Source: an uncultured Metabacillus sp. (GTDB lineage Bacteria > Bacillota > Bacilli > Bacillales > Bacillaceae). Taken from it: a DNA stretch of 43,898 nucleotides. The position numbers and the translations under genes were made by a program. The notes under the pieces are model-generated. The model ran no database searches. It was not told the origin of the DNA and was given only the letters and a program-made list of their open reading frames with translations. The stretch covers positions 1-43,898 of the forward strand of contig NZ_CANNCR010000038.1 in assembly GCF_947503125.1 (NCBI RefSeq). Reading direction: 5' to 3'. Each line of letters opens with the position of its first letter. Within the stretch, counting starts at the first letter, position 1. Shown piece by piece: positions 6,256 to 9,528 of the stretch.

Positions 6256-6411
6256 CTAAAGAATTGAGGGGCTGTAGCCGTTCCAATCAACAAAAAATAC
6301 AATTGGTAAAATAAAGAATAAGAGAGTCGTAAAATCTCCAACAGCAGATTCAAGCTTTTTTATAATGATCCATGAATTTAAGAGACTATGCCTTTGTCGT
6401 GTAAAGAACAT
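6256..6411 (-). other. Possible small membrane ORF or gene remnant (51 codons)
   Basis: On the minus strand, an open frame from ATG at 6411 to TAG at 6256 overlaps the end of the 6386-6826 gene. Its last 35 codons read like a natural membrane peptide (KKLESAVGDFTTLLFF then ILPIVFFVDWNGYSPSIL). There is no good ribosome binding site. It may be the decayed C-terminus of a membrane protein rather than a living gene. A GC-rich hairpin without a T-run (6214-6247, arms CCGCGGGC and GCTCGCGG) lies just beyond its stop. Together these account for most of the 6185-6386 gap. Confidence 0.25.
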
Positions 6412-6826
6412 ATGTCGACCGGTCCTCATCAATTTCAGCAGAAATTTTTCTGTATTCTTGTTCGTCTATCCATAAAAAATCATTTCCTATCAGGGATAAA
6501 GCCTCTTCATGTGAATATAAATCATATGTATAGATGAGCGGCGACACACTATACTCCTTATAGTCACGCACTTCCAGCGTAACATGGGTATAGCTTTCGG
6601 CATGTTCAATAATTGCTTCTTCCTCATCTAATTCTACATAAATAACGTAATATTCCTTTTCAAGACTTGCTGATGTCTTATGATACACCTTTTGATCTTT
6701 AATAAAATAATCACATAGTCTTCGACAAAAAATTTCAGTTGGTTCAGAAAATTCATAATGATACAATGCAGGGTAATTTTTTTGCTCATCATTTAAACGA
6801 TATTCCAATTTATAGTTTTTTTTCAT
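6386..6826 (-). CDS. Hypothetical protein, 146 aa
   Basis: I do not recognise the family. The protein is soluble and acidic, rich in Glu and Tyr, without signal peptide or membrane segment. It starts MKKNYKLEYRLND and ends with YVLYTTKA. The start is the ATG at 6826, eight bases after GGAGGT; an in-frame TTG four codons upstream overlaps that site. It is a single gene on the minus strand between convergent and divergent plus-strand genes. Many sequence-orphan Bacillus proteins look like this. No function is proposed. Confidence 0.75.
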   Translation of the reverse strand: MKKNYKLEYRLNDEQKNYPALYHYEFSEPTEIFCRRLCDYFIKDQKVYHKTSASLEKEYYVIYVELDEEEAIIEHAESYTHVTLEVRDYKEYSVSPLIYTYDLYSHEEALSLIGNDFLWIDEQEYRKISAEIDEDRSTYVLYTTKA

Positions 6827-6982
6827 ATTTACCTCCAAAGTCTAGGCTATTTCTACTATACTATATGAGGGTGGAAAATGATGTATGGACTTTGTGAATT
6901 ATTTAAAATTAGTTAAACAGTTTTTAAGGAGTTTACTTAATTAGATCACTAGATTGTTATTTTTACAGTGGGGGGAAGACAA

Positions 6983-7306
6983 TTGAAGAAGACAAATAAA
7001 TTATTAACTGGAATCATTTCAGCAACGATGATGACGATTTCTGGTTGCAGTAATAATGAATCATTGCCGCCTGTTCCAGAGGGAACAGATTGTGATGATT
7101 GGGAATGGGAAGCAGATGAAGGGGTTTGGGAGTGTGATGATGATACTTCATCTCATTATGGTCATTATTATTACGGCGGAAAATTCTATAATTCCAAAAG
7201 CAGCTTAACCGCAAGCTCTACTTATAAAAGCTATAAATCGAGCACTTCCTTTAAAGGAGGCGGATCTGGATTTGGTAAAGGTTCTAGCGGAGGTTTTGGC
7301 GGGTAA
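6983..7306 (+). CDS. Small lipoprotein with glycine-rich, Gly-Gly C-terminus
   Basis: 107 residues from the TTG at 6983; a GTG at 6968 lies inside the GGGGGG ribosome binding site. The N-terminus (MKKTNKLLTG...TISGC) is a type II signal peptide with lipobox ISGC, so Cys22 would be lipid-modified and the protein membrane-anchored outside the cell. The mature part has an acidic, Trp-rich segment with two cysteines (CDDWEWEADEGVWEC), a Tyr/Ser/Lys-rich middle and a tail GGGSGFGKGSSGGFGG that ends in Gly-Gly. The stop overlaps the start of the ligase gene (TAATG). Gene order resembles enterobacterial DUF1190 lipoprotein/DUF350/ligase clusters (yjfM-yjfL-yjfC, ygiB-ygiC); this is from memory. The tail may be a ligase substrate (see findings). 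Confidence 0.8.
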   Translation: MKKTNKLLTGIISATMMTISGCSNNESLPPVPEGTDCDDWEWEADEGVWECDDDTSSHYGHYYYGGKFYNSKSSLTASSTYKSYKSSTSFKGGGSGFGKGSSGGFGG

Positions 7307-8559
7307 TGTCACACTCTTTTCATTTAGAAGAGCATTTGAGCAAACGGCGTGATGCTTATAGCAAAGTCAATCATTTTTGGCACGATTTATATGACAGTGA
7401 ATATGCGTTATATGATATCGCTCTAATGACAGAACAGGAAATTGCTGACATTCACATAGCGACGCGACGCATCGGCCACATTTTTTTTAAAACAGGCAAC
7501 TTGCTGAGAAGTTCATCAGACGAAACATTATTACAGTTGGATCTGCCGCACAGCATCCTACCCTTTATAAGGCATCGTGCATTACCCGTTGATTCAGTCA
7601 TTTCCAGAGTTGATTTAGTTCAGACAGCTGATGGGCTTAAGATGCTTGAGCTTAATAGTGATACACCTACCTTTGAAAAGGAGGCTTTTTATGTAAATGC
7701 TGTCCTATGTAAAGAGTTTGGTGTAGAAGACCCCAATAAAGGTTTAGCAGAAATGTTAGGAAAAGAAATGCGTAAAGCGTTAGCAGAAATGCTGCACCGT
7801 TCAGAGATTGACCATGAACCAAACATTGTGTTTACATCACATGAAGCTCATGAGGAAGACAAATACACGACCTTGTTTTTAATGGAAACAGCCAATGTCC
7901 CGGCAAAATATGTTCCTTTACATAAGCTGACAATCAAAAAGCAAGAAGGGTTGTATGATGATGAAGGGAATAAAATTGACCTCCTATATCGACAAACCTA
8001 TCCGTTAGAGCATTTGGTTGAGGATATGGATGAACAAACAAATGAAGAAATCGGGGTACAGCTACTTGAGCTTATTGTGTTAAACAAGCTGCACATGGTG
8101 AACCCCATATCAGCATTTTTACTGCAATCAAAGGCTGTTCAAGCAGTTATTTGGGGCATGATGGAACGTGATCATGCTTATTTTACAGCAGAAGAAAAGC
8201 AATGGATTTCAACTTATTTTTTACCTACTTATCTGGAAGAGGACATTTTCTTAAAGAGTGGTGTGAAGTATGTCAAAAAACCAAGTTTTGGTCGAGAAGG
8301 AGACACCGTATCCATTTACAAAGGGAAAGAAAAAATCTTAGAGGATGCTCATAAAACTTATGATAAATCATTGCCTGTTTTTCAAAAGTATATAGATCTG
8401 CCTGCCCAAGAAATAAAAACATGTGATGGAATGAACGAAGGAAAAGTGCTAATTGGAAGCTTTTTAATCAATGGAAAACCATCTGGCATCGGGTTAAGGG
8501 CAGGGAAGCAAATTACCGATAATAATGCCTATTTCTTGCCAATTGGACTAAAACGTTAA
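7306..8559 (+). CDS. Glutathionylspermidine synthase-family ATP-grasp ligase
   Basis: 417 residues matching the synthetase domain of glutathionylspermidine synthase (PF03738), without the N-terminal CHAP amidase domain of the bifunctional E. coli enzyme. Seen: LELNSDTPTFEKEAF (about 113-127, the N-x-DTPT motif), KKPSFGREGDTVSIY (about 324-338, the ATP-grasp K-P-x-x-G-R-E-G segment), and the terminal YFLPIGLKR. The family activates a carboxylate, classically the glycine carboxyl of glutathione, as an acyl phosphate and joins it to an amine. Bacillaceae generally lack glutathione, so the real substrate here is probably different. Translationally coupled to the upstream lipoprotein gene and followed 17 bp later by the DUF350 gene. 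Cytosolic: no signal peptide or membrane segment. Confidence 0.88.
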   Translation: MSHSFHLEEHLSKRRDAYSKVNHFWHDLYDSEYALYDIALMTEQEIADIHIATRRIGHIFFKTGNLLRSSSDETLLQLDLPHSILPFIRHRALPVDSVISRVDLVQTADGLKMLELNSDTPTFEKEAFYVNAVLCKEFGVEDPNKGLAEMLGKEMRKALAEMLHRSEIDHEPNIVFTSHEAHEEDKYTTLFLMETANVPAKYVPLHKLTIKKQEGLYDDEGNKIDLLYRQTYPLEHLVEDMDEQTNEEIGVQLLELIVLNKLHMVNPISAFLLQSKAVQAVIWGMMERDHAYFTAEEKQWISTYFLPTYLEEDIFLKSGVKYVKKPSFGREGDTVSIYKGKEKILEDAHKTYDKSLPVFQKYIDLPAQEIKTCDGMNEGKVLIGSFLINGKPSGIGLRAGKQITDNNAYFLPIGLKR

Positions 8560-8576
8560 AGAAGGGACATGAGAAT

Positions 8577-8981
8577 ATGTCATTTTTAGATTTGTTTTTA
8601 TCGACAATATCCTATATTGGAGTAGCTGTTGTGCTTTTAATCATTGGAATTGCCCTATTTGAAGTCACAACAAAGAATAAGGAATTTGAATTAATCAAAA
8701 ACGGAAATAAGGCAGCAGTTTATGCTTTTGGCGGACGGATTTTAGGTTTAGCGATTGTCTTGTATTCATCTATTTCGAACTCTGTCAACATTTTAGATAT
8801 GGTGGTTTGGGGAAGTGTCGCTATTGTTATTCAGATCATTATCTTTTATGCAGCCGAGCTGCTGACTCCAAAATTTAATATTACAAAAGCCATTGACGAG
8901 GATAATCAGGCAGTAGGCTTATTTTTATTATTTTTATCTGTTTCTATTGGCTTGATTATTGCTGCATCACTTACTTATTAA
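8577..8981 (+). CDS. DUF350 (YjfL-like) inner membrane protein
   Basis: 134 residues with four hydrophobic segments arranged as two pairs (about 8-28, 48-66, 74-94, 111-133), the layout of DUF350 family proteins, which consist of two repeated two-helix units. Small polar patches (GNKAAVYAFGGR and EDNQAVGLF) repeat the family's N-x-A-x-A/V-G-type signature in each half. A ribosome binding site AAGAAGGGAC precedes the ATG. Third gene of the lipoprotein-ligase operon; the conserved neighbourhood suggests it works with the ligase product at the membrane. Biochemical function unknown. Confidence 0.87.
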   Translation: MSFLDLFLSTISYIGVAVVLLIIGIALFEVTTKNKEFELIKNGNKAAVYAFGGRILGLAIVLYSSISNSVNILDMVVWGSVAIVIQIIIFYAAELLTPKFNITKAIDEDNQAVGLFLLFLSVSIGLIIAASLTY

Positions 8982-8993
8982 CCAGTTAGAATG

Positions 8994-9028
8994 AAAGCGG
9001 GTGACCATTTATCATGTCATCCGCTTTT
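8994..9028. terminator. Bidirectional terminator between DUF350 and coat gene
   Basis: AAAGCGGGTGAC pairs with GTCATCCGCTTT (one G-U) around a short loop. T-runs on both sides fit use by the plus-strand operon and by the convergent minus-strand gene, whose last codons lie inside it. Confidence 0.75.
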
Positions 9029-9490
9029 CTCGTCATGTTCCTCTTTATTTTCCTCCACTACCATCCCAGGATCAAAGTACTTGATTGCACTATAGCTAGC
9101 GGGGTCAATTGTCACGACCTCATCTGTTTCCGTTACAAAAGCGATCTCATATATTTTACCGATTTTTACATGTTCTAATTCTTCATCCCAGATAGACAAA
9201 TTTGGACGTAGTAACCCTAGTGTCGCACAGCCTGTATCATGTTCCAGTTTAACAATTTTAAAGAAGACTGTTGCAAAATAATTAGTTGTTTCAGCTTTTC
9301 CCCATGTGAAAAAGGGATCTCCTTTTTGTGTTTGCAGGATAAAAGGAATGGTTTTATAGGCTGGAGCCTCAATTAATTTATGAGTTGATCGTAAATACTC
9401 AGCTCTTTCCTGCATTTGCTTGATTTTTTTTAGCGCATGCCAAATTGACGGCAGCGTATTTGCGTATTGCTTATTTGCATTTTCAGTCAT
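9017..9490 (-). CDS. CotY/CotZ-like spore coat protein
   Basis: About 157 residues from the ATG at 9490 (MTENANKQYANTL), which follows GGTGAT; in-frame ATGs at 9505 and 9499 are alternatives. The core YKTIPFILQTQKGDPFFTWG, the segment ATVFFKIVKLEHDTGCATLGLLRP and the late SYSAIKYFDPGMV align by eye with CotY/CotZ (T-I-P-F, F-F-R-V, C-C-A-T-L-S-L-L-R-P, C-A-I-Q-C-L-P-E-L-V). Family members form the cysteine-rich crust or exosporium layer of spores. This copy is odd in having almost no cysteine: only the CAT position is kept, and the C-A-I-Q-C site is SAIKY. It may therefore be a non-crosslinking paralogue. A plausible SigK promoter lies upstream. Confidence 0.68.
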   Translation of the reverse strand: MTENANKQYANTLPSIWHALKKIKQMQERAEYLRSTHKLIEAPAYKTIPFILQTQKGDPFFTWGKAETTNYFATVFFKIVKLEHDTGCATLGLLRPNLSIWDEELEHVKIGKIYEIAFVTETDEVVTIDPASYSAIKYFDPGMVVEENKEEHDEKSG

Positions 9491-9528
9491 CACTAACATC
9501 ACCATCTTTCTTTAAAAACAATTTACGA

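Follow-up and report, generated by a model that had tools for sequence, protein, structure and literature searches.

Lipoproteins with a terminal Gly-Gly encoded beside YgiC-type ATP-grasp ligases are candidate substrates for C-terminal polyamine attachment

Contig NZ_CANNCR010000038.1 of an uncultured Metabacillus sp. (assembly GCF_947503125.1), referred to here as the window (the whole stretch of DNA that was analyzed, 43,898 nucleotides), encodes a small lipoprotein ending in Gly-Gly, whose gene overlaps that of an ATP-grasp ligase of the glutathionylspermidine synthetase family. The locus raises the question of whether the lipoprotein is the substrate of the ligase encoded next to it. A preliminary description of the sequence proposed that the ligase amidates the C-terminus of the lipoprotein and that the DUF350 protein encoded downstream is the membrane partner. 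Based on the comparison of such loci across bacteria, we consider it fairly probable that the lipoprotein and the ligase form a substrate–enzyme pair, and that the tail of the lipoprotein is tipped with a polyamine before export. The genes and elements concerned are the following:

6983..7306, plus strand: lipoprotein (the tail protein), 107 aa, with a TTG start at 6983 (alternative GTG at 6968) and a TAA stop at 7304-7306
7265..7276, plus strand: S-G-F-G, an inner element that follows the x-G-hydrophobic-G pattern common to most tails
7298..7303, plus strand: terminal Gly-Gly (GGC GGG), with the amide predicted to form at the last carboxylate
7304..7308, plus strand: TAATG, in which the lipoprotein stop and the ligase start overlap, as read in the sequence
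7306..8559, plus strand: YgiC/YjfC-type ATP-grasp ligase, 417 aa, ATG at 7306; PF03738 (GSP_synth), E 7.1e-57
8577..8981, plus strand: DUF350 membrane protein; PF03994, E 1.4e-36

The lipoprotein contains a signal peptide with the lipobox ISGC, a conserved CDDWEWEADEGVWECDD region and a C-terminal tail, ...FKGGGSGFGKGSSGGFGG, the last residues of which are ...SGFGKGSSGGFGG. It matched no Pfam family at E 0.1. The Gly-Gly end, the TAATG overlap and the DUF350 gene downstream are thus present in the sequence as they had been described.

Among the 171 neighbors of YgiC-type ligases that we compared (five phyla), 134 end in Gly-Gly and 144 in glycine, and the last residue is glycine or serine in all 171, the window lipoprotein included. 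Conservation of the C-terminal glycines among ligase neighbors had been named beforehand as the test that could overturn the proposed modification, which it withstood. The ligase loci were pooled from the genus, the family, the class, named genomes (the best 80 of 530) and E. coli K-12. The class survey found the ligase in 123 of 299 genomes, and the 69 new loci read from it comprised the 29 best-scoring ones and 40 picked to cover other genera. The neighbors were selected by an N-terminal signal-peptide rule (142), by position (28) or, in the case of YjfM, by annotation (1), in all cases from the genes upstream of the ligase; the positional rule takes the longest open reading frame (ORF) whose end is near the ligase start. 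Both rules are blind to the C-terminus, but were written after the locus listings had been viewed. The positional rule overrode the signal rule in ten loci (L071, L084, L120, L124, L126, L129, L131, L132, L133 and L136); scoring these as failures leaves 125 of 171 with Gly-Gly. Excluded were L020-L022 (the frameshifted genes of genome G003 and a second piece of G017), L093 (a PF03738 match with no near candidate by the rules, where the ORF overlapping the ligase start ends in PGSSSG), L094 (no ligase by tblastn) and L149 (no candidate found).

Two collections sometimes contributed the same gene, as with loci L017 and L098, and counts were therefore also made by cluster. Clustering of the bodies at 50% identity, with the last 30 residues omitted, yielded 36 representatives. 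Gly-Gly ends 26 of them, compared with an expectation of 3.5 from shuffling of the last 20 residues (maximum 11 in 5000 simulations); shuffle windows of 15 and 30 residues give expectations of 4.9 and 2.3. Glycine occurs in 81% of the representatives at both positions -1 and -2, and in only 8% at position -3, and therefore Gly-Gly is a discrete end rather than a matter of composition. Position -3 is often Phe or Trp (11 of 36). Glycine-poor tails also end in Gly-Gly, such as those of L073 (...YDSYDSSSSGG) and E. coli YgiB (...QRSATGTSSRSMGG). The inner element [GSKRN]G[FYIVLM]G is present in 30 of the 36 representatives, within the last 45 residues minus the final few. The ends of the E. coli proteins are ...SSRSMGG in YgiB, where the Gly-Gly given in the preliminary description proved correct, and ...ARGHWGG in YjfM. 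As a control, the other ORFs called in these loci (minimum length 100 aa) were examined; 7 of 1430 end in Gly-Gly, two of which are the fourth gene of the module described below. The same end is found on 1 of 402 ORFs in 400 kb of the window's genome, and on none of the 30 lipoproteins that a crude prediction rule identified there.

The Gly-Gly could also be kept, without any modification, for reasons of DNA or translation (the gene that overlaps it needs a ribosome binding site) or as a protection against proteases. The dependence on gene spacing fits such a cause, since Gly-Gly is found in 118 of 138 tails with the next start within 6 nt, compared with 7 of 17 at 7-25 nt and 9 of 16 beyond. 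Nevertheless, 15 of the 16 possible Gly-Gly codon pairs are in use, GGA-GGN accounts for 31 of 134, and the seven remaining tails with the next start more than 25 nt away end in G or S. All ten tail genes located about 1 kb upstream of the ligase, with DUF350 as the next gene where listed, retain Gly-Gly. Because the glycine codons vary and these distant tails keep Gly-Gly, the constraint appears to act on the protein, and we regard conservation for such reasons without modification as very improbable. A Shine-Dalgarno origin of Gly-Gly was tested and judged minor.

The bodies that carry these ends are diverse. A profile comparison of hand-picked body sets, with the signal start and tail removed, related two Bacilli groups to each other (93%). 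The actinobacterial set scored 76% with the second Bacilli group, 28% with the first and 21% with the gammaproteobacterial set, which in turn scored 11% and 18% with the Bacilli groups. The Paenibacillus-type bodies scored 0.2% with Bacilli and 0.1% with the gammaproteobacterial set; these proteins have no lipobox, and their N-terminus is hydrophobic and signal-like. Judging by these sequences, body types without detectable homology have the Gly-Gly end in common. In a Pfam scan of ten tail proteins, one, from the gammaproteobacterial set, was assigned to DUF1190, and nine had no family at E 0.01. The two genes are also linked in their occurrence. Of 80 family genomes, 24 encode the ligase, and exactly these 24 also encode the window-type lipoprotein, so that presence agrees in 80 of 80. 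Genomes G015, G073 and G077 have neither gene, and in G003 both the lipoprotein tail and the ligase are frameshifted.

The same genomes contain a sister module, which provided an unplanned control that we grade as the strongest clue. Its members are genes for DUF4178-like and PspA-like proteins (labels presumed from resemblance), for a lipoprotein, for DUF350 and for a membrane protein of the SpeE type, which carries an aminopropyltransferase domain. The lipoprotein of this module, which in genome G000 is DUF4247, has a glycine-rich tail that ends in lysine, ...VRGGGPGTGK. An exported neighbor ending in -GK is found in all 42 Bacillota SpeE-type loci read (17 from the family, 14 from the class and 11 from the phylum), whereas none of the 171 ligase-linked tails ends in lysine. 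The family sample derives from 20 chosen stretches, 18 of which have the sister module and 17 a SpeE gene in reach (15 from the genus and 2 from others of the family). The class sample covers 14 of 18 genomes, since G000 was already covered and G067, G132 and G357 (partial match only) were left out, and the phylum sample covers all 11 new genomes found. The E-value limit of 1e-60 in the SpeE search restricts these samples to near relatives. The export-signal rule, written after the tails had been viewed, lists the -GK gene in 40 of 42 loci and has it as the nearest pick in 39; in L289 another gene is nearer, and the -GK ends of L307 and L310 were assigned by eye. The -GK tails (L233:5046-5654, minus strand; L234-L250; L276-L289; L301-L311) come after a glycine-rich stretch, mostly RGGG, and their bodies vary greatly: some are lipoproteins, others have one hydrophobic anchor, and in L310 there is a fusion. 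We consider the -GK exported protein a likely substrate of the aminopropyltransferase.

The fusion in L310 is a 370-aa ORF upstream of DUF350, in which the lysine-ending glycine-rich tail is attached behind a longer protein, perhaps the module's DUF4178-like member. DUF350 loci without the ligase, 23 of the 30 tried, had been intended as the lipoprotein control. The short flanks listed for them contain no tail protein, and they are therefore uninformative about termini, for which reason the SpeE module was taken as the better control. The gene beside ligase-less DUF350 is presumably MutS2-like. In one such locus, L178, an ORF of 91 aa overlaps DUF350 and has a lipobox-like start.

The window ligase consists of the PF03738 synthetase domain without the amidase, as is characteristic of the YgiC/YjfC type, and no other domain scored above its cut-off in the Pfam scan. 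The NCBIfam model of the bifunctional Gss gave 63.9 bits, compared with a cut-off of 882. E. coli Gss residues R316, D318, E330, N332, K498, K533, R538 and R598, which we take to be the catalytic residues of the ATP and Mg sites and the phosphate-binding arginines, align with R101, D103, E115, N117, K276, K325, R330 and R398 of the window ligase. All eight are intact, in agreement with membership of the YgiC/YjfC type. Gss residues S335 and S337 are replaced by Thr, and C539 by Glu, in the window ligase, YgiC, YjfC and nine others. The predicted structure of the window ligase (pLDDT 95.1) is most similar in Foldseek to YjfC (7uk6, TM 0.78/0.83), followed by Gss and YgiC, and the nearest relative by sequence is YgiC (7uk8, E 2.1e-14). 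Family and intact residues suggest that the window ligase couples a peptide carboxylate to an amine. The window's genome encodes one homologue of soluble-type spermidine synthase and two of S-adenosylmethionine decarboxylase.

Two other uses of this chemistry have to be weighed. Gss makes glutathionylspermidine, and the fold and residues that the window ligase has in common with it (2io9, E 1.3e-23) would suit an enzyme producing a small soluble peptide–polyamine conjugate. The lipoprotein would then act on its own as an envelope sensor, and sharing an operon would alone be enough for the co-occurrence. We find this unlikely: it leaves both the Gly-Gly on unlike bodies and the lysine end of the sister module unexplained, and E. 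coli gss, at the one locus inspected, is flanked by pitB and yghU and has no annotated lipoprotein gene as a neighbor. Alternatively, the partner of the tail may be an amine other than a free polyamine, for example that of a lipid head group or of a lysine in a protein, in which case the tail would be a tether or a ubiquitin-like tag. The Gly-Gly end resembles those of ubiquitin-like modifiers, and the amine site may differ from that of Gss, since late in the domain the window ligase has A399, G400, N406 and Y409 in place of G599, D600, K607 and D610. The nearest characterized relatives, E. coli YgiC and YjfC, carry the RefSeq name peptide--spermidine ligase, which makes an amine other than a polyamine improbable in our view.

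Based on the termini, the ligase family and the sister module, a mechanism of polyamine attachment to the lipoprotein can be proposed. The ligase would use ATP to activate the carboxylate of the C-terminal glycine in the Gly/Ser-rich tail as an acyl phosphate, and the activated carboxylate would be joined to an amine, for which a polyamine (spermidine, for example) is the most likely candidate. No signal-like segment was noticed at the start of the ligase model, and the modification is therefore expected to take place in the cytosol on the new preprotein, ahead of Sec export and lipidation. The gene overlap may favor synthesis of the lipoprotein and the ligase at one place. The product would be a membrane-anchored exported protein with a flexible tail and a polyamine tip. 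In the sister module, the membrane aminopropyltransferase is predicted to add an aminopropyl group to the side-chain amine of the C-terminal lysine. Both routes would give a polyamine-tipped tail, because the aminopropylated lysine side chain has the spermidine skeleton. In the loci compared, the terminus matches the chemistry of the enzyme, a glycine carboxylate for the ligase and a lysine amine for the aminopropyltransferase. The modified protein may couple the envelope to the polyamine state, perhaps through contact with anionic surfaces or with a partner in the membrane, which could be DUF350 or the potassium channel often encoded nearby. We speculate, more tentatively, that the ATP-grasp ligase acting on glycine and the membrane aminopropyltransferase acting on lysine are two convergent routes to a C-terminal polyamine on glycine-rich exported tails. 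Both routes, accompanied by DUF350 and in many genomes by a PspA-like gene or a potassium channel, could belong to one envelope-stress circuit, in which the tethered polyamine is perhaps a reversible plug or a surface-binding tip.

Several observations weigh against polyamine attachment to the tail. We know of no modified tail product, and the ligase and the tail end are on opposite sides of the membrane unless modification comes first. Translation coupling may add some pressure for Gly-Gly. Serine ends 27 of the 171 tails, and another residue followed by glycine ends 10. Many of these exceptions fall in one Bacilli ligase clade of 14 rows (nine S, four xG and one GG), and others are scattered, in Helicobacter suis (...AIS), Photorhabdus (...WGS), Geodermatophilaceae (...GS) and Armatimonadota (...SSSS). 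On a tree of 117 ligases, with near copies omitted, the Gly-Gly label requires 14 changes, compared with 22.8 in shuffles. Since one ligase clade has mostly Ser-ending neighbors, Gly-Gly is not strictly needed; the terminal rule is a small last residue, with Gly-Gly as the prevailing form. When the ligases were searched for positions that change together with a Gly or Ser end, the only differences were clade-like. The tail proteins may also be mostly of common descent with great divergence: BLAST of the bodies at E <= 1e-3, with the low-complexity filter off, merged 142 of 171, Bacilli with Proteobacteria, and kept 24 Paenibacillus-type bodies apart. Signal peptides and simple sequence may explain this merging. 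Genome G017 has an intact lipoprotein gene together with a frameshifted ligase gene. The evidence from the sister module has its own weak points. Lysine is a common last residue in the window's genome (64 of 402 ORFs, with GK in 4 of 402). Outside Bacillota, a glycine-rich or export-type ORF with a lysine end was found in 3 of 7 SpeE loci of a plasmid collection, from Ensifer (GGGPESGK), Alteromonas (RGPSSGK) and Tritonibacter (NRVK). No Lys-ending candidate was found in the two Novosphingobium loci, and the two Burkholderia loci have only a Ser-rich ORF ending in ADSK, which was taken as chance.

The proposal that the ligase amidates the lipoprotein is therefore partly supported. The conserved termini, the matching presence of the two genes in the family genomes and the lysine end in the sister module speak for it; Gly-Gly is not a strict requirement, as the mostly Ser-ending clade demonstrates, and the chemistry is suggested only by the family and the intact residues. 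The part assigned to DUF350 fared less well, since in eight loci with a ligase and a tail protein (L059, L060, L062, L066, L073, L078, L089 and L095) DUF350 was undetected in the approximately 7 kb read. In two Halalkalibacter operons (L104 and L112), two PF03738-type ligases flank DUF350, and there is a single Gly-Gly tail protein. Of the 171 ligase loci, 32 have a potassium channel gene, on either strand, within the DNA retrieved; they come from Bacilli and Gammaproteobacteria (for example L102:7243-8292), and the one channel scanned consists of Ion_trans_2 and TrkA_N.

The module has a fourth member, absent from the preliminary description, which in the window is divergent from the other genes:

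6386..6838, minus strand: protein of about 145-150 aa, identified by an iterated profile; divergent here, in the same operon in other Bacilli

A member of this family of about 150 aa was found with the iterated profile in 93 of 171 ligase loci, within the same operon in many Bacilli, and has a motif near the C-terminus like S-x-E-[IV]-D-[EQ]-[DN]-R. Eighteen members had no Pfam match, and the confidently predicted structure (pLDDT 94.1) had no fold match in the PDB at E <= 0.001. A relationship to DUF2491 was considered and rejected, since the profile comparison gave only 0.1%. The single match from PADLOC, a weak one (E 0.0074), is to this protein. Four loci of family f43 were read, and in three of them (L035, L036 and L043) the lipoprotein ends in SSSS and the fourth gene in Gly-Gly, which may represent a substrate swap. 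The module is adjoined in the window by a gene for a spore-coat CotZ-like protein (9017-9505, minus strand; PF10612, E 7.3e-9).

If polyamine attachment to the tail takes place, C-terminal polyamination joins the modifications of exported proteins, and the polyamine state of the cell is tied to its envelope. The terminal-residue rule names concrete candidate substrates for both enzymes, in E. coli K-12 and in Gram-positive bacteria. The closest known systems are the E. coli pairs YgiB-YgiC and YjfM-YjfC, each composed of a DUF1190 protein and a peptide--spermidine ligase. Their ligases have the fold and residues of the window ligase, and the tails are alike (RGGFG...MGG in YgiB and RGGYG...WGG in YjfM). 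Unlike in these pairs, the window lipoprotein has no match to DUF1190 (PF06693) in the Pfam scan, its body has no detectable homology to theirs, and no DUF2491 or PspA-like gene adjoins the module among the ORFs read.

Ravi et al. 2024 (PMC11237479), cited here from the passages available, describe both operon types in PspA contexts. One contains DUF350, a lipoprotein, a GSP-synthetase-like ligase and a potassium channel, like the window, and the other a spermidine-synthase-like 7TM protein, DUF350, a lipoprotein and DUF4178, like the sister module. The roles suggested there are polyamine monitoring or the aminopropylation of further substrates, and DUF1190 is described as metal-chelating. The text of that article, as available, contains none of the terms glycine-rich, C-terminal glycine and lysine, and its passages are silent on termini. 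In Haemophilus influenzae, the available part of a further article places the lipoprotein NTHI1101 in outer-membrane fractions and its gene in one operon with that of a putative glutathionylspermidine synthase, and reports no effect of its loss in the assays used (PMC13055389). By analogy, NTHI1101 is the likely H. influenzae counterpart of the tail protein. Among the papers listed by our literature search, none treats a tail protein as a ligase substrate, and an earlier proposal for the E. coli neighbors may exist.

The bifunctional glutathionylspermidine synthetase/amidase Gss has a PF03738-type domain and catalytic residues like those of the window ligase. It differs in the presence of the amidase part (619 aa, compared with 417 aa for the window ligase), and E. 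coli gss has no adjoining tail protein. A parallel to the proposed product may come from SUMO, which itself ends in Gly-Gly. SUMO–spermidine conjugates have been reported in eukaryotes (PMC12270671, from the passages available), and by analogy they provide a precedent for a Gly-Gly end joined to spermidine.

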